Source of the DNA: a virus
Virus record (IMG/VR): IMGVR_UViG_3300010160_003886
Location: 1-20,012 of that record
Direction: 5' to 3' (one strand)
DNA: 20,012 nucleotides
Shown here: piece after piece, positions 1,311 to 15,625 of the stretch
How positions within the stretch are numbered: position 1 is the first letter of the stretch
How the letters are laid out: each line of letters opens with the position of its first letter
The notes under the pieces: model-generated
Told to the model about the DNA's origin: nothing
The model's database searches: none
What the model saw: only the letters and a program-made list of their open reading frames with translations
Translations under genes and position numbers: made by a program

Positions 1311-2755
1311 AAAACCTGTACTCCATTTAGCTGTTGCCAACGCTGTGCGTCTGCCCAAGAATTTACCAAAGGCTCGCCTTTTATGTTCAAACTAGTGTTC
1401 ATAAGCATAGGACACCCGCTTTTTTTGTACCAAAGTTCTAATAATGCTCGGAATTTGGGATTATCTGCGTGGTTAACTGTTTGAACCCTGCTGGTATTGT
1501 CCACATGGCAGATACCTGGAAACTCATTGGGTATACGACAACGTGCTACAAATTGCATATATGGACTGGATTTTACTGGCATATCAAAGTATGTATCAGC
1601 ATGTTCTTCTAATATTGCAGGAGCAAAAGGACGGAACTATTCACGTTTCTTTAATTGGTTCATGCGTGGTTTGGCATCCTTGCCTCTAGGGTCGCATAGT
1701 AAACTACGGTTGCCCAATGCCCTTGGGCCAAACTCTGCTCGGCCATTGGCCACTGCTACAACCTTGCCATTAAGTAAGTCAGCGACGATGCTTTCTATAT
1801 CCAGTTCACGATCTATGTCGGTGCCTAGATAAGGAGTTGTCCATGCAAGGTGTTGTTTGGTATATGCGGCCACAGCTCCTATAGCACTACCTGCATCTCC
1901 GGGATTGGGCATAATCCATACATTTTTATAGATGTTAGCGATACGGCTGTTGGCCACACAGTTAAGAGCACACCCTCCCATAAACACCAAATTATCACTG
2001 GGTAGATTATTTTTAATCCAGTTAACTGTATTAACAAGATATTCTTCCATGACTGCCTGCACACTGGCCGCAATATCAAACTTACTAACTCCACCTAAAT
2101 TTTCCCACCACCTGCATCCTCTGTGCAAGTTGTGCCTTAGTTTAAAATTAGGTCCTTTAAATTTTGTAAAGAATTCTTTTTTAAAGTATTCAGCAAGCAC
2201 AGGCTTGCCAAACGCTGCCATGCCCATGAGAATGTATTCTTCTTCGTTGGGCTTTAGGCCTAGGTAATCTGTAAATGCCGTATAAAACAATCCAATACTG
2301 TTAGGATACTTTTTACCCCACACTTTTTTCATGCTTTTGCTATCTGCTTGCCATATACTAACTGTGTCCCATTCTCCGATAGCATCAACAACTAATACAC
2401 TAGCATCAGTAAATCCACTGGTATAAAAGCCGCCAGCCGCATGACTTTCGTGATGTCCTACATATTCTATAGGAAGACGACCTAATCCCAATGCTTTAAG
2501 CTCATGCTTGGGATGTTCGTACCAGGGTGTTTGCCCTGCCCACAATCTACGTAGAGATTTTTGATTTGGCTTTTCAAACCATACTACGGATGTTGGTGAT
2601 CCGTACTGGTACATATCTTTGATTATTTCAGAATTTAAGTGCTCGTCGTTTTTAGTTCTGCTGTATCGTTCAGAATGAGCCGCCCACACAATGTTCTGCC
2701 CATCCATCAAGGCCATGCTAGCATCGTGGTTCTGACCAGTGATACCTAGTATCAT
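1307..2755 (-). pseudogene. NodU/CmcH-family O-carbamoyltransferase interrupted by an in-frame TAG
   Basis: The family transfers carbamoyl from carbamoyl phosphate to hydroxyl groups of sugars or antibiotics. Codons 1-372 carry the expected motifs: NHDASMAL near the start, HHESHAAGG at 101-109, DAIGEWD at 124-130, GGCALN at 260-265, PGDAGSAIGA at 285-294 and EFGPRALGNRS at 341-351. Codon 373 (1639-1637) is TAG. The same frame then continues at once with the conserved FRPFAP and 109 codons including MNTSLNIKGEP, ending at TGA 1307. Read through, the protein would be 482 residues, a normal fold in a single frame. So this is a point nonsense change, a read-through site or a sequencing error, not a frameshift. 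The start overlaps the upstream mini-gene (ATGA). Carbamoyltransferase genes are known in marine T4-like phages; the acceptor is unknown. Confidence 0.85.
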
Positions 2756-2902: not shown

Positions 2903-3139
2903 ATGTTTACCAAACCTAAATGGGTAGAAAAGTGGCCACGTAGCGTCAGCAAAGTAGTATCTTGGCGTGTATTAGTTACGGGAACTAATCTTATTGCAGG
3001 ATGGATTGCAACTGGAAATTTTTGGGGCGGCCTAGAAGTTGCTGGAATTTTGCTAGTAGTTAACAGTACTTTGTACTTTTTCCATGAACGTGCATGGAAT
3101 CGTGTAGATTGGAATAAAGAAGCAGTTCCAGAAGAATAA
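2903..3139 (+). CDS. DUF2061 small membrane protein
   Basis: A 78-residue protein with the DUF2061 signature: RSVSKVVSWRVLVTGTNLIAG (residues about 13-33) followed by a second hydrophobic stretch and FHERAWNRVDW (about 60-70). Two short transmembrane helices are predicted (about 20-38 and 43-60). The length is normal for the family. AAAGGAA lies seven bases before the ATG as a ribosome site. The family's biochemical role is unknown. It precedes the DctP-like gene by 22 bases on the same strand, so they may be co-transcribed, although a late-promoter box lies between them. Confidence 0.85.
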   Translation: MFTKPKWVEKWPRSVSKVVSWRVLVTGTNLIAGWIATGNFWGGLEVAGILLVVNSTLYFFHERAWNRVDWNKEAVPEE

Positions 3140-3161: not shown

Positions 3162-4109
3162 ATGGCACTAACAAAAATTAGATGGGTTCTTGCTCACGAA
3201 CCTCTAGATATTTTTATCAGAGCGGCTGAAAAGTTTGCAGAAGTGATTGAAGAAAAAGCACCTGGTCAAATTGAGATTGAAATTCTTACACTCAGCGAAT
3301 ATACTGAAAAATACAATGGTGGTGCTAAAATCACCAAACATGATTTATTAGGTCTAATGGCTGAAAATAAGATTGAAATGAGTCAGATGTATACCTATGT
3401 TCTACAAAAACTTAACAAGGATCTAGGAGTACTTGACCTGCCTTTCTTATTCCGTGATCATAAGCATGCCGCAGAAATCTTCGAAGGCCCAATTGGCGCC
3501 GAATTGTTAGCTGGCTATGCTAAAAATAATTCAAAGATTAAGGGCATGGCATTTACTTACAGTGGCGGATTTAAAAACGTACCACTAAACAAGGAAATTA
3601 AATCACTAAGTGATTTTGAGGGTATTCGTGTACGTGTATCCAACAGCCCTGTTTGTCAAGATACATTTAAAGCACTAGGTGCAGAACCTATTGTAATGGA
3701 TGTAGAAGAGATTACAAACGCAATTGCCGATGGTAGAATTGATGCAGGTGAAAGCTCTTGGCCAAGAATCTATGCTTGCCAGCAAAACGAAGTAGCAAAG
3801 TCTATTTTAAATGGCAACTATAGTTTGTTATTAACCAACATTATCATCAACGATGAATTCCTAAATACATTGTCTCCTGAATTGCAGGCAGCAATGAAAG
3901 AAGCCGCAGTTGAAGCAGGACGATTTGAACGTGCTATTGCAGTAGCAGAAGTTGAACCTACTATCAATAAAGCAGAAGCTGATGGTATTAAAGTTGTTAA
4001 ATTATCTTCTGAAGAAGAAACTAAGTTTAGAGCACTTGCAGAAACAGTTCATGCAAAGTATCAAACTTATTTTAGTTCTGGATTAATTGATAAGATCAAG
4101 TTTCATTAA
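3162..4109 (+). CDS. TRAP-transporter DctP-like solute-binding protein without signal peptide
   Basis: This 315-residue protein matches the DctP fold from its first strand. It has IRWVLAHEP at 6-14, a helix ending KFAEVIEEKAPGQIEIEI, VLDLPFLFRDHKHAAEIF near 88-105, FEGIRVRVSNSP near 155-166 with the arginine that binds substrate carboxylates in this family, and DGRIDAGESSWP near 190-201. Normal family members carry an N-terminal export signal, but here none is present. The codon four before the ATG is TAG (3150-3152), so no longer start can supply one. AGGAG six bases upstream fixes the start. No TRAP membrane subunits are nearby. It may act in the cytoplasm or in the virion, or bind a metabolite. 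The end overlaps the convergent gene by 4 bp. Confidence 0.85.
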   Translation: MALTKIRWVLAHEPLDIFIRAAEKFAEVIEEKAPGQIEIEILTLSEYTEKYNGGAKITKHDLLGLMAENKIEMSQMYTYVLQKLNKDLGVLDLPFLFRDHKHAAEIFEGPIGAELLAGYAKNNSKIKGMAFTYSGGFKNVPLNKEIKSLSDFEGIRVRVSNSPVCQDTFKALGAEPIVMDVEEITNAIADGRIDAGESSWPRIYACQQNEVAKSILNGNYSLLLTNIIINDEFLNTLSPELQAAMKEAAVEAGRFERAIAVAEVEPTINKAEADGIKVVKLSSEEETKFRALAETVHAKYQTYFSSGLIDKIKFH

Positions 4110-5404
4110 ACCCAATCTATTTTGTAGTTCAACAACCCGGCGGTGATAAAATCATTAACGCCGGGTTCGTTTATGTGAATAACATTAAAGTCAGTATCAA
4201 CACCGAACTTTGTGTCAAAGTTTGTGTAATGCTTACTCCAGTTTCTTTTTATAATTACTGGCATTGATGGCATTTTAGTTTTGTTGAACAAGTACCATTT
4301 ATTTTTATCAAACTCATATATGTACTTTTTTGATGCCCATTTATAAGAGCTAGGTGAACTGCCATTAATTTTTTCACCGTTATTGTTATTGGATAAACTC
4401 CATTGCTGGTAATCCTGACTGCCGAACCAATTAACAATACCATTTTCAAAAGTATTTTTTATATTACTTTCTGTTCCGTAATTTAAACTAGGTCTTATTG
4501 CACCCCAAATAAATCTTTGATTAAACATGCTCCACCAAAATAAATCATGTAAACTATGTACAGGTACAGCAGATCTTTTTATATTGTAATCTAATTTTTC
4601 ATAAAACAATTCACCAAATTGTAAATCAGTATCTATCTTAGTTGATAGATTTTTACTCTTTGCTTCTAAGTTTTTGATACCTTTTTCAAGACCAATATTA
4701 AAATATAACATCAATAAATCTTTATACTCTGAATAATGTGTATCTCGAGAACTTACTTTGTGATATATGTCACTGTAGCTCTTTTTTATATTTGTTGGGA
4801 GTTTATTTTCCAATGAATGTAACAATGGATATAACTTGACTCCTAGTTCAGTACCGTATATAAAATCACCAAGGTCGGCACTAATACAGATTGCATTGTC
4901 CCTGTTAATACAATCATTGTATAAGGTATTCATTGAATCAATAATTTCAAATTTACCTTGAATAAAATCTTTATAAAAATATGGATTTTCGATAATAGAA
5001 TCACTGCTCATCGAAACTTTAATTTTCTTGAGTTCATCTGAATTAAGATTTTTTAATAATGAGGTCATTACTACGGTGCTATCAATTCCACCTGAATAAA
5101 ATACAATACAATCTTTGCCCGTATCATTAATAATTTTTTTAATGTCTTGCGCCCGTTTATCAGTTACTTCACTAAATGAAAGACTGAAATTAGTATTGTA
5201 TATGGGCATCTCTAAACCTGGTGCTATTCTAGTTTCCCAAGGGTTACTCCATTTTCCCATCCTTGGAATATATGCCTCTGCACCATATGCTCTTATCAAA
5301 TTGCAATAAAATCTACCACCATCAGGCAGCTCGTTGAATACTGGTTCGACTACGTTTACCAAAGCAGATGAATGGAATGTTGCCTCTTTATGGTATAATT
5401 TCAT
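4106..5404 (-). CDS. PP-loop ATPase, asparagine-synthase-like (no glutaminase domain)
   Basis: A 432-residue protein with the PP-loop motif SGGIDS at 104-109, in the strand-loop-helix context CIVFYSGGIDSTVVM. This is the ATP-pyrophosphatase motif shared by asparagine synthases, tRNA-modifying ligases and relatives. These enzymes adenylate a carboxyl, amide or carbonyl oxygen. The preceding helix TDKRAQDIKKI resembles that of the PP-loop protein at 7871-9037. An N-terminal glutaminase domain is absent: residue 2 is Lys, not the catalytic Cys. Ammonia or another nucleophile must therefore come from elsewhere. No zinc CxxC cluster is present, which argues against QueC. Its ATG overlaps the stop of the upstream 204-residue gene (ATGA). 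The acceptor substrate is unknown. Confidence 0.75.
   Translation of the reverse strand: MKLYHKEATFHSSALVNVVEPVFNELPDGGRFYCNLIRAYGAEAYIPRMGKWSNPWETRIAPGLEMPIYNTNFSLSFSEVTDKRAQDIKKIINDTGKDCIVFYSGGIDSTVVMTSLLKNLNSDELKKIKVSMSSDSIIENPYFYKDFIQGKFEIIDSMNTLYNDCINRDNAICISADLGDFIYGTELGVKLYPLLHSLENKLPTNIKKSYSDIYHKVSSRDTHYSEYKDLLMLYFNIGLEKGIKNLEAKSKNLSTKIDTDLQFGELFYEKLDYNIKRSAVPVHSLHDLFWWSMFNQRFIWGAIRPSLNYGTESNIKNTFENGIVNWFGSQDYQQWSLSNNNNGEKINGSSPSSYKWASKKYIYEFDKNKWYLFNKTKMPSMPVIIKRNWSKHYTNFDTKFGVDTDFNVIHINEPGVNDFITAGLLNYKIDWV
4134..4167 (+). terminator. GC-rich hairpin, probable terminator for the DctP-like transcript
   Basis: aacccggcg (4134-4142) and cgccgggtt (4159-4167) form a perfect 9-bp stem. 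The 16-base loop contains a smaller tgat/atca stem. It lies 25 bases after the DctP stop and is followed on the plus strand by a moderately T-rich stretch (ttcgtttat begins at its end). It sits inside the last codons of the convergent PP-loop gene. The weak T-run makes the call tentative. Confidence 0.5.
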
Positions 5405-6015
5405 GATTGGTTATAAAAGTTAAGAAATGTATTCCTATACGCAGACAATAGTCGATCAGAGTCTTCAGGAATTAACATTGACATTTTTTGCAATGCATCT
5501 TCTTTTGAATTAGCAAGATACAGTATTTTGTCTATAGAATGTAGAAAGCCGCCTGGCAAATTTGTTTCGTCTCTAAGAGATGTGATATCCTCAGTAGAAT
5601 CTAATAAATTTAAAAAATATTGTTGATTGTTGGAATTTAGTAGTGCATCAGTCATTCTAGAAGCCTGACTAACAGCTAACACAAATTTAGCAAAATCTTG
5701 ATACTCAGTTGCTAACTTCAAGGTACTAAGTCCCTGATTGCTTAACCACTCTTCATTTTCTAAGATAACACCAGTGTCTTTTAACTTATCGTTAATTATT
5801 CTTAGCCTTGGAATTTGTCGATCTGTGGCCGCCATTGACGGATCTTCTAATGTCCAGGTTAGACAATTAGTATTGTCTATTTGAATTTCTTTAGAAATAA
5901 GACAAACACACAGGGTAAATTTAGATGACAATAAATTTGCAGTATGCATCAGCATCCACAAATCATTTGATATAAGCAGGAATCTTGAAATATTATTTAG
6001 GTATATACCGTACAT
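5401..6015 (-). CDS. Unknown protein (204 aa), partner gene of the first PP-loop ATPase
   Basis: A soluble 204-residue protein beginning MYGIYLNNISRFLLISNDLW. The N-terminal half is alpha/beta in character; the C-terminal half is helical (for example KLATEYQDFAKFVLAVSQASRM). I recognise no motif. Its stop overlaps the PP-loop ATPase start (ATGA), so the two are made together and may act as subunits or consecutive enzymes. There is no ribosome site. An AATAAATA box ends five bases before the ATG, and a 7-bp hairpin covers the start. This gene is the main unexplained component of the cassette. Confidence 0.75.
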   Translation of the reverse strand: MYGIYLNNISRFLLISNDLWMLMHTANLLSSKFTLCVCLISKEIQIDNTNCLTWTLEDPSMAATDRQIPRLRIINDKLKDTGVILENEEWLSNQGLSTLKLATEYQDFAKFVLAVSQASRMTDALLNSNNQQYFLNLLDSTEDITSLRDETNLPGGFLHSIDKILYLANSKEDALQKMSMLIPEDSDRLLSAYRNTFLNFYNQS

Positions 6016-6032
6016 GAATCTATTTATTCATG
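6013..6032. repeat. 7-bp inverted repeat containing start codon and late promoter
   Basis: catgaat (6013-6019) and attcatg (6026-6032) are exact reverse complements around a 6-base loop. Read on the minus strand, the downstream arm contains the ATG at 6015. The upstream arm and loop contain the AATAAATA box. Only transcripts initiated upstream of the box can fold this hairpin. Confidence 0.7.
6021..6028 (-). promoter_or_regulatory. T4-type late promoter box (AATAAATA)
   Basis: Minus-strand AATAAATA followed by GATTC and the ATG at 6015. Transcription would start within one or two bases of the ATG. No ribosome site precedes the gene, which fits a leaderless late transcript. Confidence 0.55.
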
Positions 6033-6047
6033 ATATAACGGCTTTAA

Positions 6048-6341
6048 TTAAAATTCTTCTTCTTCGACAGTTATAACAATTCCGTGAGCAGAGCAATATA
6101 ACTCTCTCTCTTCTCTGATCGCCACCGTTTTTTCAGAATTTGCAAAATTACTCCATGCTTCTTTTGAAACCCAAATTTGTGTAGATGTCCATACTCTGCC
6201 ATCTTCGGACAGTGTACGTTCTCCAAATAATCTCTCTTCCGGAACTTCTGTTTCAAATCTTTCACAATGATGTGCAGGGTATTGCCAGTGTTGTGCAGTT
6301 GAACCTTCTGGAAGGGTGTGAATTTGTGTTCTTCTATACAT
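6048..6341 (-). CDS. Hypothetical protein (97 aa)
   Basis: A 97-residue acidic protein beginning MYRRTQIHTLPEGSTAQHW and ending in TVEEEEF. Alternating beta-type segments (RVWTSTQIWVSKEAW, REERELYC) suggest a small ferredoxin-like or dimeric alpha-beta barrel fold, but no family is certain. The start at 6341 is supported by AAGGAA about 10 bases upstream, and further up by a GATAAATA late box. It lies between the 2OG-like gene and the PP-loop cassette on the same strand. An internal second frame at 6071-6265 is a shadow. Confidence 0.7.
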   Translation of the reverse strand: MYRRTQIHTLPEGSTAQHWQYPAHHCERFETEVPEERLFGERTLSEDGRVWTSTQIWVSKEAWSNFANSEKTVAIREERELYCSAHGIVITVEEEEF

Positions 6342-6369
6342 AAAATATATTTCCTTGAAGTTATTATAA

Positions 6370-6377
6370 TATTTATC
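6370..6377 (-). promoter_or_regulatory. T4-type late promoter box (GATAAATA)
   Basis: Minus-strand GATAAATA contains the TAA stop (6375-6373) of the upstream 2OG-like gene. Transcription would start near 6363 and give a leader of about 22 bases carrying AAGGAA before the ATG at 6341. Among the late boxes seen, this is one of the two with ordinary leader geometry. Confidence 0.55.
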
Positions 6378-6936
6378 TAACTACGCTATCATAATCAATG
6401 ACTTTAACAAACTGAGAAATATCAGTACCAACATATCCGGCAGATATAAAGATTCGTAGTCTATCTCTTTTAATATTTCTAACAGCATGAATTGTATCAA
6501 CTTTTAACAAATACCACTGAAACGGTTCAATTGTTACTTCTGCTAACAGTGTTTCCTTGTCATCTGTCCACCATTGTATTTTAGTGTTGTCTCCTCCAAG
6601 ATCAAAATAATAATTTAATGCGTAATTACGTCCTATATCAACATGTCTACCGTGTGCCCCGAACCACTCTGGGTCTTTTAAATGTTCAGAATACTTAGTA
6701 ACATTTAACATGGGGTCAGCCATACCTTCGGGTACCGGAGAAAAGTTTGGTTCAAACACATTGACTGCCAACCATTGTTTAACAAATTTAGGAATTACGG
6801 TTGCTCTATTAGCCGGTCCTCGGTATTCATTAATTTTTAATAATCTAGGATCTGTATCTATTAATGGTATATTTGCTAGACACGGATCTATAAATTCAAT
6901 AGGAAGAGTTGGAAGATTAAGTTTAGCAAAATACAT
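6373..6936 (-). CDS. 2-oxoglutarate/Fe(II) oxygenase-like protein (187 aa)
   Basis: The C-terminal half has the order expected of a double-stranded beta-helix oxygenase. HVD at 98-100 would be the first two iron ligands, within GRHVDIGRNYALNYYFDLGG. His150 in KVDTIHAVRN would be the third ligand. An arginine in RDRLRIFIS (159 or 161) could bind 2-oxoglutarate. Aromatic residues around them (WWTDD, FQWYLL) fit the family. Such small proteins are common in marine T4-like phages with unknown targets. The ATG at 6936 is preceded by TATAAATA with no ribosome site. It diverges from the TctC-like gene at 6979. Confidence 0.7.
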   Translation of the reverse strand: MYFAKLNLPTLPIEFIDPCLANIPLIDTDPRLLKINEYRGPANRATVIPKFVKQWLAVNVFEPNFSPVPEGMADPMLNVTKYSEHLKDPEWFGAHGRHVDIGRNYALNYYFDLGGDNTKIQWWTDDKETLLAEVTIEPFQWYLLKVDTIHAVRNIKRDRLRIFISAGYVGTDISQFVKVIDYDSVVR

Positions 6937-6941
6937 AGTAA

Positions 6942-6974
6942 TATTTATACACCAATTAACGGTGTCTATAAATA
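6942..6974. promoter_or_regulatory. Back-to-back late promoters in a 42-bp divergent gap
   Basis: Minus-strand TATAAATA (6949-6942) serves the gene starting at 6936, and plus-strand TATAAATA (6967-6974) serves the gene starting at 6979. Between them lies cacc-aattaac-ggtg, so the whole region is nearly palindromic. The boxes are 17 bases apart, too close for two polymerases to bind at once. Each box ends four or five bases before its ATG. Confidence 0.7.
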
Positions 6975-6978
6975 CCTC

Positions 6979-7887
6979 ATGAAAAAACTATTTTTATTTT
7001 TAATTGTATTTTTAAACGGTTTACATGTCTTGGCCGCGCCATTAGAATTTACAGTAATGCACGCCCCGGGAGGAGTAAGCGACATAGTAACACGATTTAT
7101 TGTTAGAGAGATGTCAAATAACAAAAGTATTATAGTTGTTAATCGCCCAGGCGCGGCAGGTAAAATTGCCATTCAACATATGATGTCTGTAAATTCAATG
7201 ATGTTGGCCACTATGCCGCAGGTCTTTGTAACTAATCCTATTAACTTTACAGATTTGCCGTATACAGTTGACGACCTTGAAGTAATTGCCACTGTTGGAA
7301 TTATGCCTTCTGCATTAGTATGCAATAAGAATCTAGGAATAGATAATATAAAACAACTTACGGCACAGACTAAACCTTTAACTTTTGCTGTTGGCGGCTA
7401 TGGTAGTTCTGAACATTTGTCCACTGAAGTTCTATTAACAAAACTTAAAATAAAATATATAATTGTGCCGTATGCACAAGGTGGTAATACATCAGTGACA
7501 GATTTAATAGGTGGTCATGTTGATTGTATGTTTGCTAACTTTCCAACAATACGTCAGCATTTAGAAAACCCTCGTTTAAAATTGCTATTAGTTAGTCACC
7601 CTGTACCTGTGCAAGCGCCAACTTGGGAATCTGAATTTAAAGAATCATTTCCATTCTCTGTATATCTGTCAATCATTACGCCAAAATCTACAGACTTTGT
7701 AGTTAAGAAACAATGGGCTACTGATTTATCTATATCATTTCAATCTCAAGGGTTTAAAGCATCTTTAGAAGATATGGGATTATTTCCTAAAACCAGCACT
7801 GAGTCTCAAGAAATACAAAAATGCTTGCGAGCCAACGAAGCAATTAGAAAATTTATTTTAGACAATAAAATTAAGATTTCTGGTTAA
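6979..7887 (+). CDS. TctC/Bug-family solute-binding protein with signal peptide
   Basis: This 302-residue protein opens with a classic export signal (MKKLFLFLIVFLNGLHVLA), probably cut near residue 19-20. The mature part shows the Bug/TctC pattern: APGGVSDIVTRFIVREM near 29-45 (the substrate-carboxylate loop), VVNRPGAAGKIA near 54-65, and VGGYGSSEHLSTEV near 137-150 followed by VPYAQGGNTSVTDLIGGHVD. The family binds tricarboxylates or similar acids for TctAB transporters or for sensing. No TctA or TctB is nearby, so it would have to work with a host system. The length is slightly short for the family but covers both lobes. A TATAAATA box ends four bases before the ATG and no ribosome site is seen. 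The end overlaps the convergent gene by 17 bp. Confidence 0.85.
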   Translation: MKKLFLFLIVFLNGLHVLAAPLEFTVMHAPGGVSDIVTRFIVREMSNNKSIIVVNRPGAAGKIAIQHMMSVNSMMLATMPQVFVTNPINFTDLPYTVDDLEVIATVGIMPSALVCNKNLGIDNIKQLTAQTKPLTFAVGGYGSSEHLSTEVLLTKLKIKYIIVPYAQGGNTSVTDLIGGHVDCMFANFPTIRQHLENPRLKLLLVSHPVPVQAPTWESEFKESFPFSVYLSIITPKSTDFVVKKQWATDLSISFQSQGFKASLEDMGLFPKTSTESQEIQKCLRANEAIRKFILDNKIKISG

Positions 7888-9037
7888 TGTAACCAATGAT
7901 AAATGATTTAGCAAACGATTGAAGACCGTCCGGTTTATCTGTATCTTCATTAATTCTTAAAAATGGTGAGAGGGTAGTTTGAATGTACGAAACACCCTCG
8001 TTCCATATGTGTTTGGCCTTTGTTCCTTCTGCGCCCTCAATAAACCAATTGTCAAATTCACTGTACCAGTCCTTAGTAGCTTTATCAACTTGGAACCATG
8101 AATTGTTCCAAGTACTTGGGTATATTACATCTCTAAGTAACCGTTCGTGCCACAGTCTTGCTATTTTATAGCTTATTGTATCACTGTTCCAATATATTTG
8201 GTATTGAGGATTTTGTTCTAACCATCGCTTAATGATGTGTCCTTGTTTTATTAAAATAGGAACACAATCGGGACTCCAATAAAAATATTCAATTACACTG
8301 TTGTCATAGTCCTTAATATGATTAATAATTGTAACCATGTTGGCTGATCGATCATTGAATCTAATATAAAATTTACCATTTTGTATTGCACTCTTAGGTT
8401 TTTCAACACCTAAAATAATTCCAATTTTTTTCTCTTTATCAAACCTTTTTCTAACTTCATCAAAATATATGTAATTAAATCTAGTAATACCAATTGGGTT
8501 TAGTGCTTCTCTTTTTTCCATGACCCAACTTGCATCACCTGCCTTCAAGAAAGATTCGTGTACGCTGTCAGTAAGGTCGCATATCGTAATTTTAGTGCGT
8601 GGAATAAACTTTTCAATTTCCTTTAATCGAGGAATAGTTTGTAACTGATGCTCTGCTCCTGAATTAAAACTTGAAATGTTTGCAGGGTCTAATACCGTAA
8701 ATGGTTTCCAACCTTTTTCAAGTGTGTTAACAATAATTTCATCTATGAGCAGTCCTTGTCTAATGAAACTCATTAGTATTTGATGACTATCGCTGCCACC
8801 GCTGTAACTTAATATAAGATAATCGTATTTTTCACGAAGGTCTCTCGCACGTTGGTCATATAATTGATCAAGGGTCGCTGTAGGTTCAACGGTCCAATCG
8901 TGGGATCTAAATTTGTGATCATTGAATACCCACTGAACTGGTTTATTGACCTGTAAAGAATAAATGTATGCCTGTATCTTAGATTCAAATTCTAAATTGT
9001 TGCAGGTATAGTATCCTAATTTTTTATTGATATGCAT
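7871..9037 (-). CDS. PP-loop ATPase, asparagine-synthase-like, coupled to a flavin oxygenase-like gene
   Basis: A 388-residue protein with SGGSDS at 79-84 in YLILSYSGGSDSHQILMSF. The preceding helix DQRARDLREKYD matches the arrangement in the PP-loop gene at 4106-5404. It lacks a glutaminase domain and zinc cysteines. The C-terminal half is rich in Trp, Tyr and His (for example WHERLLRDVIYPSTWNNSWF), which suggests a specific substrate pocket or a helical lid domain. Its start overlaps the end of the nitronate-monooxygenase-like gene by 14 bp, so they are translated from the same message. The activity is probably adenylation of an acid or amide, but the substrate is unknown. Confidence 0.75.
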   Translation of the reverse strand: MHINKKLGYYTCNNLEFESKIQAYIYSLQVNKPVQWVFNDHKFRSHDWTVEPTATLDQLYDQRARDLREKYDYLILSYSGGSDSHQILMSFIRQGLLIDEIIVNTLEKGWKPFTVLDPANISSFNSGAEHQLQTIPRLKEIEKFIPRTKITICDLTDSVHESFLKAGDASWVMEKREALNPIGITRFNYIYFDEVRKRFDKEKKIGIILGVEKPKSAIQNGKFYIRFNDRSANMVTIINHIKDYDNSVIEYFYWSPDCVPILIKQGHIIKRWLEQNPQYQIYWNSDTISYKIARLWHERLLRDVIYPSTWNNSWFQVDKATKDWYSEFDNWFIEGAEGTKAKHIWNEGVSYIQTTLSPFLRINEDTDKPDGLQSFAKSFIIGYINQKS

Positions 9038-9935
9038 CTTGTACCAGTTCTTCTATAATATCTTTTACAGGTTTTATCTGTGTTATTTTATCAATTCCCT
9101 TGCCAACAAATATAGCACCTTCATTGGACGAACGAATTCCTTTGTATAGTGACCGTGTGTAATTATCTGAGTCGGTTGATATATCACCTAATTGTATACC
9201 TTGAATGTTTAAATTTCCAAATGTAGTTACACTATCTTTAGTAGCTTTTAACAATTTTAATTTTGTGTCTCGTGCAATTATGCTTTCCTCGGACATGGCC
9301 AATAATGTACCGATGCCTACAGCTAATGAACCCTTGTCCATAAAATATTTAACATCATTACGTGTTGCTATTCCACCACTTGGTATAATGTTCATTGTAG
9401 GATACAGGTTCTTAATCCTATTAAAATTTTCATCTAATGTTCCTGCAATGTTATTAGTTCTTCCGGCACCATTAGGACCTTTTAGTATTATTGTTCCTTG
9501 ATTTAATTTATGCGGATCTTTGAGAGTTTTAAAAATAATATTAACATCATGCTCTTTTTTTAAAAAATTAATATGAGTAGCTAGTAATAGTTCTGTTTTT
9601 TCATCCATAGGCGTTCCGAACAATTCTATAAATTTAATTTTAGTATCTATAATAATTTTAGAAACTTGTTCAGTTATTAAATCAATACGATCTATGTTAA
9701 CAAGGACATTAGATGATCCCGTAGCCGCAGTAAAACGTTTTATACCATTGTCAAATAATGAAATGTCTAATGTACCATTCTTATAAAACACACTTGCTGA
9801 AATACTAGGCAACGCACCTGCTCGGAAAACTGCCGTGGCTAACTTTACATCAGATACTAATGTCATTGGTACAGACACAATTGGATATTTACAATGGAAG
9901 AAGTCTTTATAGCTCACCAAATATTTATTGAGCAT
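9024..9935 (-). CDS. Nitronate-monooxygenase-like FMN-binding TIM-barrel protein
   Basis: A 303-residue protein with the NMO/2-nitropropane dioxygenase layout: YPIVSVPMTLVSDVKLATAV near the start, GPNGAGRTNNIAG near 155-167, and the FMN-phosphate segment IIPSGGIATRNDVKYFM followed by GSLAVGIGTLLAMSEES near 184-217. The usual catalytic His after GG in bacterial enzymes is absent here (NGAGRT), so the chemistry may differ. I choose ATG 9935 over an in-frame start at 10019. GGGAG lies six bases upstream, and the longer form would run far into the divergent Rieske gene. It overlaps the PP-loop ATPase by 14 bp and diverges from the Rieske gene across 34 bp. Confidence 0.75.
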   Translation of the reverse strand: MLNKYLVSYKDFFHCKYPIVSVPMTLVSDVKLATAVFRAGALPSISASVFYKNGTLDISLFDNGIKRFTAATGSSNVLVNIDRIDLITEQVSKIIIDTKIKFIELFGTPMDEKTELLLATHINFLKKEHDVNIIFKTLKDPHKLNQGTIILKGPNGAGRTNNIAGTLDENFNRIKNLYPTMNIIPSGGIATRNDVKYFMDKGSLAVGIGTLLAMSEESIIARDTKLKLLKATKDSVTTFGNLNIQGIQLGDISTDSDNYTRSLYKGIRSSNEGAIFVGKGIDKITQIKPVKDIIEELVQDAYQ

Positions 9936-9964
9936 TTGACTCCCTGCCTTAAATACTGTATAAT
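9936..9964 (+). promoter_or_regulatory. Sigma70-like promoter for the Rieske/PP-loop pair
   Basis: TTGACT (9936-9941), a 17-base spacer, then TATAAT (9959-9964), ending five bases before the ATG at 9970. Predicted transcription starts at or just inside the ATG, so the message should be leaderless; no ribosome site is present. The -35 box directly abuts the divergent ATG at 9935. Confidence 0.75.
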
Positions 9965-9969
9965 AAAAT

Positions 9970-10803
9970 ATGTTTAAAAATATTCCAAAAATCCTAGCGC
10001 ATGAATCGGCTATAAGCACAGAAAATTTTGTTGTAACTGAATATATACTGCATAAAGCTGAGACAGGAGTTGACTTATTCCATAGGTTTTGTCCTCATAG
10101 AATGTATCCTCTAGCGACTCCGGGAACACTTACTACTGAGATAACCTGTAAGTTTCACGGGTTCAATTGGACTGCTGACGGCACTCCTACTAATAACAAT
10201 AAAAAAATATCTTGCGGCGCGGCTAACGTAGGTAAATCTGGTTTAATTTTTAATAATTTTGTTGAACCTGACCACCATTGGGTAAGTGATCTTGCTAAAG
10301 AAAAAAATTTAAAATACAGCCATAGTTTTACTGGATCGAGTGAAGGAAGTTGGTTGTGGTTAATGGAGGCTGAAGCAGATCTCCTGCATGTGCATAAACA
10401 AGGGATACATCCATTTCTTGCACAGCAAATTAATCTAGAAGATATTGTATTAGAACAAGGGGATGGTTGGATCTTACAAAATCACCCAACTGGCTGGTGG
10501 CTATACATATTTCCATTCACGTTTGTTGAATACGGTAATCCGGGTATGGTTATGGTTAATACAGTGACGCCGCATACTCTAAACAGTGAGTACGGATTTG
10601 ATTGGATTACTCAATTTTATTATGATTCAACTGTAACGCCTGATAGACGATATATTTTTGAAACATTAGAAACTGTTTTTAAAGAAGATGTTGCTGCCTC
10701 TAAATTGCAAAAAGGTAATTATTTCCCCTTAATGAAAGCAATGAATAGATATGAAGATCATTGCGTACACTTTGGTAAATGGTTTAAAGAAAATAAACTA
10801 TGA
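9970..10803 (+). CDS. Rieske [2Fe-2S] non-heme iron oxygenase, short alpha-subunit type
   Basis: A 277-residue protein. The Rieske cluster ligands are Cys41-x-His43 (FCPHRMYPLA) and Cys60-x2-His63 (CKFHGF). The C-terminal catalytic part has DLLHVHKQGIHP at 137-148, giving candidate iron ligands among H140, H142 and H147, and an ending EDVAASKLQKG...YEDHCVHFGKWF similar to ring-hydroxylating and choline-type oxygenases. It is clearly shorter than the usual 350-450 residues, and spacing in the iron motif is irregular, so the catalytic assignment is less sure than the cluster. It needs an electron donor; the ferredoxin at 15302-15625 is a candidate. Its TGA overlaps the ATG of the following PP-loop gene (ATGA). 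Confidence 0.85.
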   Translation: MFKNIPKILAHESAISTENFVVTEYILHKAETGVDLFHRFCPHRMYPLATPGTLTTEITCKFHGFNWTADGTPTNNNKKISCGAANVGKSGLIFNNFVEPDHHWVSDLAKEKNLKYSHSFTGSSEGSWLWLMEAEADLLHVHKQGIHPFLAQQINLEDIVLEQGDGWILQNHPTGWWLYIFPFTFVEYGNPGMVMVNTVTPHTLNSEYGFDWITQFYYDSTVTPDRRYIFETLETVFKEDVAASKLQKGNYFPLMKAMNRYEDHCVHFGKWFKENKL

Positions 10804-11669
10804 TAGCTCAGCGTAAAAATAACTTTTACAGAACAAGTGGCACACAGGATCAATTTCAATTACAGATTGATCCTGTGACTAGGGAAGTAGGAAGCTATTG
10901 TGACGAGCTAATATTAAACGCTAAAGAAATATACGATAACAAGGTAGGTAAATTATATTGTATGTATAGTGGAGGAATAGACAGTGAGTTAGTCATGGAA
11001 TCATTCTTGTCACTAGGCATGGATATTACTCCTGTAATTGTTAATCTAGTTCCTGATTATAACTCCCATGATATGAAATGGGCGTATGAGTATTGTAATA
11101 AGAAAAATATAAAACCTTTAATTATTAATATTGATCTTAAAAATTTCATAAAAAGCGGAGAAATATTAGAAGTAGCTCATAAGGCAAGAACAGGTTATTA
11201 TCAGTATCTTCCTACGATCAAAGCGGCACTATCTTTAGATGGAGATGTTCTAACAGGACAAGACGAACCTTATATTTCTCCTGTTGATAATACTTGGTAT
11301 TTTATTGAAAAAGAATCTTGGTGTGCATGGGCCAACTTGTATAATGACAAATTCATTAGCGGCACGAGTTGTTTTTTATCCTGGAGTTCAGAAACACTTT
11401 TATCATTTATGTTAGATCCCACTATTCAAGATCTAGGAAACAATAAGTTATATGGTAAAAAAGGTACGTACTCTAGCAGAAAATTTGTGTATGGAAAAAA
11501 GTTTCCAATGCCTGACAGAATAAAATACACAGGTTGGGAACTTGTTGAGGAAACCGAATTAATTAATCATGACAATATTTTGTCAGTTAAAGAATTATTA
11601 AATGTGTATTCGGGATCTCAATCAATTGAATATAATCAATTGGTTAATATTTTATCCGGATCATCTTAA
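10800..11669 (+). CDS. PP-loop ATPase, coupled to the Rieske oxygenase
   Basis: A 289-residue protein with SGGIDS at 57-62 in YCMYSGGIDSELVMESF. It is preceded by CDELILNAKEIYDN, comparable in place to the helix before the motif in the other two PP-loop proteins. It is the shortest of the three and ends with few features after KFPMPDRIKYTGWEL. There is no glutaminase domain and no zinc motif. ATGA overlap with the Rieske gene makes a two-gene operon, which implies that the two enzymes act on one substrate in sequence or that their levels must match. The end overlaps the convergent desaturase gene by 26 bp, with no terminator between. Confidence 0.75.
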   Translation: MIAQRKNNFYRTSGTQDQFQLQIDPVTREVGSYCDELILNAKEIYDNKVGKLYCMYSGGIDSELVMESFLSLGMDITPVIVNLVPDYNSHDMKWAYEYCNKKNIKPLIINIDLKNFIKSGEILEVAHKARTGYYQYLPTIKAALSLDGDVLTGQDEPYISPVDNTWYFIEKESWCAWANLYNDKFISGTSCFLSWSSETLLSFMLDPTIQDLGNNKLYGKKGTYSSRKFVYGKKFPMPDRIKYTGWELVEETELINHDNILSVKELLNVYSGSQSIEYNQLVNILSGSS

Positions 11670-12417
11670 TTACCAGTGCTGAAATATCTAATTGCAGTCC
11701 CTGCCCTGTGCTAAAGTTACGAGGATACCTATGATGATTATTATGCCACGATTCACCCCAGGTAGGGATTGCCCATACCCAATTATTAGTGCTTTGGTCA
11801 TTTAGATTATACGTTCTAAACCCACCCCACCAGTTTGGTTTATGACCAATATAGTTTACTACGTTGCTCATAAATGCCGTTATAAATGCTGGCGCCCAGT
11901 GTAAAAATATCATTAGGTAAAATCCACCAATTGCATACAGCAATAAACTCCATGCAATGATAATACCAAAATAATACCTATGTAAAAATTGATAGAATGG
12001 ATCAGTTATTAGTTTACGCATTTTCCATTTAGTGCTTGCATCAACTTCGTGTTCATAGTTAAGTGCAAAAATTTTAATTCCTTTATACAAAGGACTATGC
12101 GGGTCGGCTACTTTGTCACTCTTTAAATGGTGATTAATATGTATTGCGACCCATGCTAACGGGCTACCGGTTCCACTAAAACAACCTAGTATAGAAAATA
12201 TCTTAACAATTGATGAATGTGTTTTATATGAGTTATGTGTAAGATGTCTATGGAATGTAACAACAATACCTAAACATCCGTAGGCAAAATACCCTGTTAA
12301 TATCAATAACAGACTGTTTAAGGTAACTCCATAGGTGTAAATGCCAGCAATGAATCCGGCAAGACAAGTTAATACAAATATCTGTGCTCCTCGGGTGCTA
12401 GATGCTAAAAATTTCAT
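11644..12417 (-). CDS. Membrane fatty-acid desaturase (second of a tandem pair)
   Basis: A 257-residue integral membrane di-iron desaturase. The three histidine boxes are HRHLTH at 56-61, HINHH at 93-97 and HNNHH at 225-229, with an extra GHK at 191-193, as in acyl-CoA or acyl-lipid delta-9-type enzymes. Hydrophobic segments lie near 14-50 and 150-190. The start at 12417 overlaps the upstream desaturase stop (ATGA), and AGGAG lies about 10 bases upstream. It introduces a double bond into an acyl chain using O2 and an electron donor; regiochemistry cannot be read here. The length is short compared with many bacterial desaturases, but all boxes are present. Confidence 0.9.
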   Translation of the reverse strand: MKFLASSTRGAQIFVLTCLAGFIAGIYTYGVTLNSLLLILTGYFAYGCLGIVVTFHRHLTHNSYKTHSSIVKIFSILGCFSGTGSPLAWVAIHINHHLKSDKVADPHSPLYKGIKIFALNYEHEVDASTKWKMRKLITDPFYQFLHRYYFGIIIAWSLLLYAIGGFYLMIFLHWAPAFITAFMSNVVNYIGHKPNWWGGFRTYNLNDQSTNNWVWAIPTWGESWHNNHHRYPRNFSTGQGLQLDISALVIKMIRIKY

Positions 12418-13163
12418 TTCTTTAATACTCCTATTAGTAAACCTACTATATCAAGTTCCCACCATTTTTCTTGCAAGTTCCATCTTTTAGGATCCTTGTG
12501 GTGGTTATTGTGCCATCCTTCGCCCCATAATAAAAAACCATAAGGCCATAAATTGGTACTGTTGTCTTTGGTTTCATGTAAGTGATATCCGTACTTATGA
12601 CCTAAATATAAAAAACTGTTTAATAGTAAATGTGTTAGTGCAACAGGCAGCACCCAAAAAAAGTAAAATAGTGCAGGACTTATTAACAATAATGTAACAG
12701 CCCAAATAATTAAAAACAAAATATAATACTTGTCAATAAAAATATTTTCTTTGGTTAATAAATCTTTAACTAGTCTTAAATTTATATGTTTGTCAAATTG
12801 GGAATACTTGGGGAAAAATATTCCTTTGAACGATAAACTAGGGTAGTGCGGATCTTGTTTGGTATCAGAGTACTTGTGGTGCATTCTATGCAGGTATGTC
12901 CAACCTATCATACTACCTCTGCCAGCTACAATAGCAAACCATGTGCAAATCCATTTTATAATATTACTTCTAAATTCAAAACTGTTGTGTGTATAGTATC
13001 TGTGCATCATCATACTAACGCCTATGCCACTATATAAAAAGTGCCCTAGAATTACCAATAAATATTCTTGTAATGTAAAATCAAAATAAAACAATCCTAC
13101 TACTGCTAAGGCAGTGGTTAAGTATTGTATAATTGAGACAGATTTGGGATTTGCTGAGAACAT
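12414..13163 (-). CDS. Membrane fatty-acid desaturase (first of a tandem pair)
   Basis: A 249-residue protein with HRYYTH at 54-59, HRMHH at 92-96 and HNNHH at 208-212, plus LGHKYG near 187-192. Membrane segments lie near 12-50 and 140-180. It is a paralogue of the downstream desaturase but clearly diverged (MMMHRYYTHNSFEF against VTFHRHLTHNSYKT). I take ATG 13163. A longer frame reaches a TTG at 13250 but would overlap the divergent gene and has no support, whereas TATAAATA lies eight bases before this ATG. The two desaturases are coupled and could act on different positions or different chains of host membrane lipids. Confidence 0.9.
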   Translation of the reverse strand: MFSANPKSVSIIQYLTTALAVVGLFYFDFTLQEYLLVILGHFLYSGIGVSMMMHRYYTHNSFEFRSNIIKWICTWFAIVAGRGSMIGWTYLHRMHHKYSDTKQDPHYPSLSFKGIFFPKYSQFDKHINLRLVKDLLTKENIFIDKYYILFLIIWAVTLLLISPALFYFFWVLPVALTHLLLNSFLYLGHKYGYHLHETKDNSTNLWPYGFLLWGEGWHNNHHKDPKRWNLQEKWWELDIVGLLIGVLKK

Positions 13164-13171
13164 AGTAATAA

Positions 13172-13179
13172 TATTTATA
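13172..13179 (-). promoter_or_regulatory. T4-type late promoter box (TATAAATA) for the desaturases
   Basis: Minus-strand TATAAATA, then TTATTACT and the ATG at 13163. The 2OG-like gene at 6936 has a very similar layout (TATAAATATTACTATG). The implied leader is only one or two bases. The box lies in the 25-bp gap shared with the divergent gene at 13189. Confidence 0.6.
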
Positions 13180-13188
13180 GGACAATAC

Positions 13189-13794
13189 ATGAGCACAATA
13201 ATTTCAGCCCCTTTAGACTTTCCTAAAATAGAACCGGATGATTGGGACAAATGGTGGGATGTCTGGAACGGTTATTCTAAAAAAATACAAAAAGTTAATA
13301 AATCTCATAATAATTTATCAAGCCCGTGGCACGGACTTGATGTATATGTTAGACCCGGGCATGAAGAAGGTGCTACCCGCCTTTATAATTTTGAAAATAT
13401 TAATAGACCAGATTTGTTTAGTAATTTTTTTAATAGGACTGATGAATTTCCTATACATATTAATATTATGAGAGTTGCTAGTTCGTTTACACAAGTTGTG
13501 CCACATCATGATTTTACATCTCCAACGTATTCAATTAGATCTCTATTACATGATACTAATCCTATACCTACTTGGTATTATTTGATCAACAACAAGAAAA
13601 CATATTTAAATTTACCAACCAATACAAATTCATGGATTTATCCCGATCATGAATCTAAACACGGATCTGATTATGACTATCGCTATAAAAAGATATTAAT
13701 TATGTTTTATGGAACAATAAAAGAAAACAAGATAAAAATGTCTATTGAACAAAGTAAAAAAAAATATCCAGAGTATATAATTTATAAATTATGA
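13189..13794 (+). CDS. Aspartyl/asparaginyl-hydroxylase-like 2OG oxygenase (201 aa)
   Basis: The C-terminal half has the beta-helix oxygenase order. HHD at 106-108 (H106 and D108 as ligands) lies in VVPHHDFTSPTYSIRSLL, followed by WYYLINN and YLNLP. Then come NSWIYPDHESKHGS, with H154 or H158 as distal ligand, and YRYKK with Arg165 as possible 2OG anchor. I choose ATG 13189, with AGGA six bases before it. An in-frame start at 13114 would overlap the divergent desaturase gene. Its TGA overlaps the GNAT start (ATGA). Function and substrate are unknown; fold assignment is moderate. Confidence 0.65.
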   Translation: MSTIISAPLDFPKIEPDDWDKWWDVWNGYSKKIQKVNKSHNNLSSPWHGLDVYVRPGHEEGATRLYNFENINRPDLFSNFFNRTDEFPIHINIMRVASSFTQVVPHHDFTSPTYSIRSLLHDTNPIPTWYYLINNKKTYLNLPTNTNSWIYPDHESKHGSDYDYRYKKILIMFYGTIKENKIKMSIEQSKKKYPEYIIYKL

Positions 13795-14405
13795 AAATAT
13801 TATTGTATTCTAAACTAACCCAAACTCAACACGACCAGTTTTTTAAATTTTTAAAAACAGCATCTACTGATACTCGATCACCTGCTCATGTTAACATGTG
13901 GTCATCTGATTGGGAGCAACGGAACGATACAATTCCCTACATTTTAAAATATGTAGACAGATTTAATTCACCTAAGGGAGAATTTCATTTGGTGTTAGAC
14001 GGAGAGGAAGTTGTTGCCTGCGCCGGCGTATATAAAAGTGATTTTAATCCAGATATTAGTTTAGCAGGAGTACGTGCTTGGATTAATAGGAATTATAGAA
14101 ATAAGTCTATTATTAGAGATATAATTTTACCGCATCACAAACAGTGGAGCATTGATAATGGATGCAAGGCTATTGCACTATCTTTTAACGAGTACAATAA
14201 AAATTTAATTGAACCGTTTAAACGAATTCGTCTTGGGGAAAATAGTCAACGTCTTTCTCAGCGCCAGCCGCATCATTTGTTTTACACAGGATTACACGAA
14301 GTTGGATATCCTGTTGCAATACAGTATACACCGCAATGGGTCATTTATGAAAAATTAGATCCAGAATGGAGTTACGATTGGGGCATCATTTCTACAACTA
14401 AATGA
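13791..14405 (+). CDS. GNAT-like N-acyltransferase (204 aa)
   Basis: A 204-residue soluble protein. The middle reads GEFHLVLDGEEVVACAGVYKS, then LAGVRAWINRNYRNKSIIRDI, then IDNGCKAIALSFNEYNKNL. This follows the strand-strand-(acetyl-CoA loop)-helix-strand-helix order of the GNAT fold. The usual RxxGxG phosphate-binding loop is degenerate here (RNYRNKS), so cofactor binding is uncertain. It is co-translated with the 2OG-like gene upstream and ends 34 bp inside the convergent 2OG-like gene. Target unknown. Confidence 0.6.
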   Translation: MKILLYSKLTQTQHDQFFKFLKTASTDTRSPAHVNMWSSDWEQRNDTIPYILKYVDRFNSPKGEFHLVLDGEEVVACAGVYKSDFNPDISLAGVRAWINRNYRNKSIIRDIILPHHKQWSIDNGCKAIALSFNEYNKNLIEPFKRIRLGENSQRLSQRQPHHLFYTGLHEVGYPVAIQYTPQWVIYEKLDPEWSYDWGIISTTK

Positions 14406-14875: not shown

Positions 14876-15305
14876 TGATTTGTTCAACCTTTACTCCTGA
14901 CTTTTCCAGGAACGTAATGCCACTAGTATCCCTATAAGAGTTGCGATATAGAACGTGCCCAATACCGCTTTGGTATATAAGTTTGGCACACTCCATACAT
15001 GGAGCGTGGGTAACAAACATAGTAGCGCCAAGACCACTGTTTGTAGATTTTGCCAATTTGGCAATCGCATTAGATTCTGCATGTAGCACCTCTTTGTTAG
15101 TTACAAGTTCTGTTATTTTTGTTTGTGGATGTCTAAATTCAAACTCACAGTTGTTGTCCCATCCTGCAGGCATACCGTTATAACCATAGCTGATCACACT
15201 GTCATCTTTGACAATAACAGCACCTACTTGTAGACGCACAGCATGGCTGAGTTCAGCGGTACGGCTGGCCCAATCCATATATAGTTTTTTAAATTTATCC
15301 TTCAT
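14868..15305 (-). CDS. dCMP deaminase (cytidine/deoxycytidylate deaminase family)
   Basis: A 145-residue zinc deaminase. It has HAE at 75-77 (His zinc ligand, catalytic Glu) and PCMECAKL with Cys103 and Cys106 as the other ligands. [14 protein letters not shown] at 41-54 is characteristic of dCMP deaminases, which make dUMP for thymidylate synthesis. The length is close to usual for the family. Phages of the T4 group carry this enzyme to balance dTTP supply. Its ATG overlaps the ferredoxin stop (ATGA). Confidence 0.92.
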
Positions 15306-15625
15306 TCTTCTAACAGATCAAGTTTATTTGGCTTGTCTTTCCATTCTTCTGCATCGGGTAACGCTGGTTTTTGTTTAGTAATAACCTGCCATTTGTTGCT
15401 CAGTCTAGTATTAATTTCCAACCACAACGGAATGTCAGTGTTAGTGTCATTGTCTTCTACGATTGCATTAACCGGGCATTCGGGAATACATACTCCGCAA
15501 TCAATGCATTCATCTGGATTAATTGCTAGGAAATTCGGGCCTTCATAAAAGCAATCAACTGGACATACTGATACGCAATCAGTGTGCTTGCATTTAATGC
15601 AATTTTCGGTAACAAGGTGTGTCAT
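15302..15625 (-). CDS. fdxA: FdxA-type seven-iron ferredoxin
   Basis: A 107-residue protein with [21 protein letters not shown] at 9-29 and [17 protein letters not shown] at 39-55. This is the pattern of bacterial ferredoxins with one [3Fe-4S] and one [4Fe-4S] cluster. The C-terminal extension to 107 is normal for FdxA. It is a cytoplasmic electron carrier. It lies in an operon (TAATG with the upstream glycosyltransferase, ATGA with the deaminase). In this window the Rieske oxygenase and two desaturases need electrons, so it may serve them; that link is inference. Confidence 0.92.

Follow-up and report, generated by a model that had tools for sequence, protein, structure and literature searches.

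The DNA analysed here, the entire IMG/VR virus record IMGVR_UViG_3300010160_003886 of 20,012 bp (referred to as the window), carries two divergent gene pairs. One consists of a Rieske oxygenase gene and the gene for a PP-loop protein (PP-loop B), the other of a gene similar to nitronate monooxygenase (NMO) and a different PP-loop gene (PP-loop A), which is overlapped by a solute-binding protein gene. In detail, the following features were assigned:

6979-7887, plus strand: TctC-type solute-binding protein (Pfam TctC 2.5e-24) with an N-terminal hydrophobic stretch, likely a signal peptide; 17-bp overlap with PP-loop A.
7871-9037, minus strand: PP-loop A, 388 amino acids (aa), motif SYSGGSDS.
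9024-9935, minus strand: NMO-like gene, 303 aa from the ATG start; a longer GTG form begins at 10019.
9936-9969: gap of 34 bp separating the divergent pairs.
9970-10803, plus strand: Rieske non-heme iron oxygenase, 277 aa (Pfam Rieske 3.8e-7).
10800-11669, plus strand: PP-loop B, 289 aa, motif MYSGGIDS.

The coordinates and the gap given in a preliminary description of this DNA were confirmed, as were the overlaps of 14 bp between the NMO-like gene and PP-loop A (9024-9037) and of 4 bp (ATGA, 10800-10803) between the Rieske gene and PP-loop B. The gap contains the best-scoring sigma-70-like site of the region (TTGACT-17-TATAAT, 11/12 matching, 9936-9964, plus strand), directed towards the Rieske gene. 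Since its -10 box stops 5 bp short of the Rieske ATG and promoter-like sites across the region were no more numerous than in shuffles, this match is only a hint.

The pairing of Rieske and PP-loop B genes was clearly found to recur across diverged phages and with diverged PP-loop partners, and thus passes the test proposed in the preliminary description. Pattern scans of 2.9 million viral contigs of IMG/VR with the family alignments yielded 32 Rieske loci, 79 PP-loop B loci (the best of 364 confirmed), 79 PP-loop A loci (the best of 183 confirmed) and 18 NMO loci. Loci retrieved through only one of the partners served to judge each pair, so that the test was not circular. When the Rieske-anchored loci were analysed, 26 of the 31 non-redundant Rieske genes, among which the window counts as one, touched a PP-loop B gene, while 5.5 were expected and the maximum in 2,000 gene-order shuffles was 15. 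The partners occurred in four orientations (Rieske first and PP-loop second in 12 cases, the reverse order in 5, convergent in 10 and divergent in 1), so that the pair does not represent a single inherited operon. In a tree quickly built from 121 PP-loop B and B10 proteins, which has several long branches, the label 'adjoins Rieske' needs 23 changes as compared to 34 after shuffling, and at least 18 of the 23 are forced by well-supported branches. The pairing is thus clustered but was repeatedly formed, moved or lost. Fusions of Rieske and PP-loop genes were absent from the loci collected. The cultured-phage reference collection contained no DNA match to the window and no protein match to any of the four genes, and Rieske and PP-loop B pattern scans of about 85,000 genomes gave no confirmed cellular homologue, bearing in mind that short-motif scans may miss distant relatives.

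The Rieske protein has the [2Fe-2S] motif CPH-x16-CxxH and an iron site D137/H140/H147/D240, residues which we take to be the mononuclear His-His-Asp iron site together with the bridging Asp. C41, H43, C60, H63, D137, H140, H147 and D240 were unchanged across 12 diverse members, and the Rieske and iron-site motifs were kept in 45/45 relatives. Profile searches against the PDB matched carnitine monooxygenase and SxtT. No reductase gene adjoins the Rieske gene in the window. A 7Fe/8Fe-type ferredoxin is encoded at 15302-15625 (minus strand) and is a possible electron donor of the Rieske enzyme or of the desaturases described below.

For PP-loop B, an AlphaFold model with a predicted local distance difference test (pLDDT) score of 89 was compared to the PDB by Foldseek. 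The matches were MnmA, beta-lactam synthetase, LarE, carbapenam synthetase and AsnB (E 1e-5 to 5e-4). MnmA ranked top by E-value; the longest alignments, over most of the model, were those to the beta-lactam, carbapenam and asparagine synthetases (asparagine synthetase (AS)-type enzymes; E 2.7e-5, TM-score at most 0.46). The nearest named viral fold relative bears the name asparagine synthase. PP-loop B gave no Pfam or PHROGs match at E 0.01. Among four E. coli PP-loop enzymes its profile was nearest to AsnB, with MnmA second, in alignments that span the PP-loop core only and with AsnB represented by a six-member profile and the other enzymes by single sequences. The SGGxDS motif was kept in 97/100 PP-loop B relatives, and likewise in 104/109 relatives of PP-loop A, so that the PP-loop residues of both families are conserved. 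Near the C-terminus of PP-loop B, [RK]xKxxG was present in 97/100 relatives and was followed by an aromatic residue and Glu in 69/100; read at the sequence level rather than by superposition, this R-x-K-xx-G resembles the R-x-K of the AS-type class. From fold and motif we infer that PP-loop B would be a stand-alone asparagine/beta-lactam-synthetase-like adenylating ligase without a glutaminase domain.

The NMO-like protein matched Pfam NMO (4.5e-15), NCBIfam FabK (7.8e-13) and FabK in the PDB (3.4e-14), its closest solved and curated relatives being FabK enoyl-ACP reductases. Nitronate monooxygenase has its catalytic His in a GGH motif. At this position the window protein reads GAGR, and GAG followed by R, M or S was found in 11/12 NMO-anchored members, the twelfth being unmatched by the motif search; an assignment as nitronate monooxygenase thus failed. 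So did the FabK equivalog test (48 bits, with a cut-off of 453, and no catalytic His). As the catalytic His of FabK and NMO is missing and Arg takes its place in most members, neither name should be applied to the function. The protein is a flavin barrel of the FabK/NMO superfamily and probably not a nitronate monooxygenase, and the oxidation ascribed to it in the preliminary description is doubtful.

The proposed recurrence of the NMO/PP-loop A pair was borne out in part: the NMO gene touched PP-loop A in 6/12 NMO-anchored loci (1.2 expected), but the association is weak, as NMO lay beside a radical SAM gene in 4/12 of these loci and the most frequent neighbour of PP-loop A is TctC. PP-loop A touched TctC in 9/20 unique cases in the Rieske-anchored loci (shuffle mean 2.2) and in 12/27 in the PP-loop-B-anchored loci. 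The PP-loop A/TctC adjacency was also the commonest of the set L121-L199 (34 + 20 unique, about 7 expected). PP-loop A, present at 183 confirmed places in IMG/VR, is by its sequence a new PP-loop family with no convincing match in Pfam, PHROGs, NCBIfam or PDB; its AlphaFold model (pLDDT 71) produced weak PP-loop matches only and no Foldseek match under 1e-3.

Downstream of PP-loop B the window continues with two desaturase genes:

11644-12417, minus strand: fatty-acid desaturase 1 (Pfam FA_desaturase 4.5e-15), convergent with PP-loop B with a 26-bp overlap.
12414-13250 (12414-13190 from an inner ATG), minus strand: fatty-acid desaturase 2 (Pfam FA_desaturase 5.9e-16).

Desaturase 1 matched the DesA family at 8.6e-20, under the equivalog cut-off. 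Among the related loci a desaturase was found within four genes of 26/47 Rieske genes, and fatty-acid desaturases were the most frequent neighbours, besides TctC, B12-type radical SAM proteins (best NCBIfam matches PhpK, 1e-17, and ladderane-lipid type, 3e-17, both under cut-off), 2-oxoglutarate oxygenases and S-adenosylmethionine (AdoMet) decarboxylase. An AdoMet decarboxylase-like gene (L132:12123-12488 and its family) adjoined the Rieske gene 5 times, 0.4 being expected. The T4 capsid gene gp23 was detected in 14/20 long relative contigs, and all 20 contained PP-loop B relatives, at least one and up to six. These gene contents are best explained if large T4-like phages have a hypervariable biosynthetic island that houses the pair.

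The most complete lipid-type run was observed at L070, on a 364-kb contig carrying gp23, where acyl carrier protein (ACP), desaturase, a small unassigned gene, AcpS, Rieske, PP-loop B, FabZ, ACP and ketosynthase follow each other (4205-9926). The ketosynthase keeps the AACSSS active-site motif, and the Rieske protein belongs to a more distant subfamily than the window type. Clusters of this type, with two ACPs, AcpS, FabZ, ketosynthase, desaturase, Rieske and PP-loop B, also occur at L056, L063 and L069. At L016, a Rieske protein 68% identical to that of the window is accompanied by PP-loop B, desaturase, ACP and AcpS.

The reading that we favour tentatively, at somewhat less than even chances, draws on the recurrence of the pair, its intact cofactor and PP-loop motifs, the fold class, the phage setting and the lipid-type neighbours: Rieske and PP-loop B would act in two steps as a tailoring module within a phage biosynthetic island, oxidising and then amidating an acyl-type substrate. 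The Rieske oxygenase, to judge by its family, would hydroxylate or otherwise oxidise a carbon of the substrate using O2 and ferredoxin electrons. PP-loop B may then use ATP to adenylate a carboxylate of this molecule, and coupling of the adenylate to ammonia or an amine would give an amide or lactam, as in asparagine and beta-lactam synthetases. The usual substrate would most likely be an acyl chain that the neighbouring desaturases have shaped and that some phages probably hold on an ACP of their own. NMO and PP-loop A, possibly with TctC, would constitute a second module that assorts separately in the same island. The earlier idea that each pair oxidises and then activates a molecule is partly supported: the Rieske/PP-loop B part agrees with this reading, and the NMO part is doubtful given the missing catalytic His.

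Several observations weigh against such an amidating module. The TM-scores of the PP-loop B fold matches are low. The commonest weak Pfam match of PP-loop B was QueC (12/13 members; best member 6.8e-4; window protein 0.15, with 12 bits not reaching the cut-off of 22), and the test for Asn_synthase failed (1/13 members, E=0.12). Within the close PP-loop B set Cys99 does not vary, which keeps sulfur transfer in play, and some more distant members lack it. ACP was found in 10/50, AcpS in 7/50 and ketosynthase in 9/50 related contigs, and none of the three was seen in the 20-kb window, so that most of these phages would depend on carriers of the host, unless their substrate is a different one. Neither a redox partner nor a source of the amine was identified for the pair. 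PP-loop and redox genes abound in the island, and a certain number of adjacent cases must therefore be expected from chance alone. Finally, at six loci (L003, L004, L010, L026, L040, L041) a Rieske gene and one to three PP-loop B10 genes lie inside a FolE-QueD-QueE operon. A more far-reaching version of the module, which we regard as doubtful, is a carrier-protein-dependent phage pathway (ACP, AcpS, ketosynthase, FabZ, desaturases) with tailoring by the Rieske enzyme and a beta-lactam-synthetase-like ligase; its product would be a virus-specific lipid amide or lactam directed at the host, its membrane or competing phages.

The FolE-QueD-QueE loci raise the alternative that the pair modifies a 7-deazaguanine precursor, e.g. 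7-carboxy-7-deazaguanine (CDG), for phage DNA or tRNA. QueC is the PP-loop enzyme making preQ0 in the FolE/QueD/QueE route (PMC6884629); PP-loop B or B10 would replace it on the CDG carboxylate, and the Rieske enzyme would oxidise the side chain. At the six loci the Rieske and B10 genes stand between FolE and QueD/QueE, with MazG in several, the QueC profile has no match at E <= 0.001 in the six contigs, the L010 Rieske protein is 82% identical to that of the window, and the weak QueC matches of PP-loop B members point in the same direction. B10 is a possible QueC replacement at these six loci. Even so, we consider the nucleobase route unlikely for the pair: 0/20 other fetched QueD neighbourhoods carry it, QueD is simply common in these phages (28/50 contigs), the PP-loop partner at the FolE/QueD/QueE loci mostly belongs to another subfamily, B10, and in the window and most relatives the pair is located among desaturases instead.

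The genes might also have no joint function, Rieske, NMO and PP-loop being separate auxiliary genes that share one hypervariable cargo island. The island indeed mixes many enzyme families in changing order, NMO occurs with radical SAM elsewhere, and PP-loop A and B each adjoin several different families. The 26 adjacent Rieske/PP-loop B cases against 5.5 on within-locus gene-order shuffling, and the persistence of the pairing across four orientations and a wide divergence of the PP-loop partners, make this improbable.

Taken as a full model, the preliminary description would have NMO/PP-loop A and Rieske/PP-loop B form one four-gene modification system driven from the shared gap. All four families are close together in the window and in L006, L027, L089, L200, L201 and L204, yet the head-to-head layout of both pairs was seen in the window only. 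A Rieske gene within six genes of NMO was borderline (4/12 NMO-anchored loci, shuffle P 0.06), NMO was missing from the flanks read of most Rieske/PP-loop B loci, and its product lacks the NMO catalytic His; a four-gene system is therefore very unlikely. Equally hard to credit is a sulfur-inserting PP-loop B of the MnmA, LarE or TtuA type, with which the pair would produce RNA or a small molecule in thiolated form. Both MnmA and LarE rank high among the fold matches, MnmA is second by profile and Cys99 is invariant in the close set, but the longest fold alignments and the R-x-K-xx-G motif point to the AS-type class, Cys99 is not kept throughout, and no sulfur-carrier gene was recognised nearby.

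The desaturases and the TctC gene overlapping PP-loop A were not part of the preliminary description, nor were a third PP-loop gene and its partner. These two and a putative acyltransferase are located as follows:

4106-5404, minus strand: PP-loop C, distantly QueC/DndC-like (PHROG 1550 QueC-like 6.4e-4; DndC 1.1e-5).
5401-6015, minus strand: partner of PP-loop C, no recognised family; adjoins PP-loop C 10 times, 0.2 expected.
13791-14405, plus strand: GNAT-like acyltransferase, weak (Acetyltransf_1 E=0.0016, under the Pfam cut-off).

SGGxDS was kept in 20/20 PP-loop C members. A defence function was rejected, the sole PADLOC match being that of PP-loop C to DndC (1e-5), itself a PP-loop protein. 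A GNAT identity is not claimed for the small neighbour f20, for which Pfam and PDB gave no support. A NodU/CmcH-type carbamoyltransferase (1307-1582 and 1637-2755, minus strand) appears interrupted; the match to its C-terminal domain extends no further than position 50 of 170, and the remainder appears to lie in a separate downstream open reading frame. A DctP-type TRAP solute-binding protein (3162-4109, plus strand, 4e-52) has no apparent signal peptide. A cytoplasmic solute-binding protein would be odd, and a relative in L153 also seems to be without signal sequence. Beside the DctP gene, 2903-3139 encodes a small membrane-type protein; homologues of it are found next to PP-loop A in other loci.

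Auxiliary metabolism of phages, tailoring by Rieske enzymes and AS-type ligases are all familiar in themselves, and phages are known to carry single auxiliary metabolic genes. Here entire enzyme sets for small-molecule chemistry recur, centred on PP-loop families that are unnamed in the libraries searched. The recurrent pairing of Rieske with PP-loop B genes in phages appears to be new; a literature search returned no relevant paper joining Rieske or asparagine-synthetase-like PP-loop genes with phage, and as far as the family libraries and literature searched show, the pairing can still be called undescribed. The pair usually lies among fatty-acid genes, which suggests that a small molecule is made or altered by these large uncultured phages. 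Should the two enzymes yield a product, large viruses would be performing natural-product-like chemistry, and a defined two-enzyme assay would be at hand. An annotation trap is also corrected, since the window 'NMO' without the catalytic His is not to be taken as an oxygenase.

Virus-borne lipid desaturases are known from an acyl-CoA desaturase in Lake Baikal viruses (PMC7678222) and from cyanophages (Roitman et al. 2018, as cited in PMC11480375). The shared feature is that aquatic viruses carry a fatty-acid desaturase as phage cargo, whereas neither Rieske nor PP-loop genes are mentioned in the texts of PMC7678222 and PMC11480375. With FabK and nitronate monooxygenase the NMO-like protein shares sequence over most of the barrel, in contrast to its GAGR in place of the catalytic His and its score far under the FabK equivalog cut-off. 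QueC is, like PP-loop B, a stand-alone PP-loop enzyme and acts on a carboxylate, as PP-loop B presumably also does; the weak profile match and the B10 branch in FolE/QueD/QueE operons connect the two, whereas PP-loop B is longer and scores under curated cut-offs, and no QueD, QueE or FolE was recognised in the window. Asparagine, beta-lactam and carbapenam synthetases have SGGxDS in common with PP-loop B, and PP-loop B resembles them in its predicted fold, which aligns with their C-terminal synthetase domain, and in R-x-K-xx-G, which in most members precedes an aromatic residue and Glu. Unlike these enzymes, PP-loop B, with about 290 aa, has a short N-terminal hairpin and no N-terminal glutaminase domain, its sequence similarity to them is almost undetectable, and its partner is an oxygenase. 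Carnitine monooxygenase and SxtT/SxtDIOX share with the window Rieske protein the [2Fe-2S] motif and the D-x2-H-x(n)-H...D iron site; the window enzyme, without an adjacent dedicated reductase, differs from them in being compact (277 aa), phage-borne and partnered with a PP-loop ligase.

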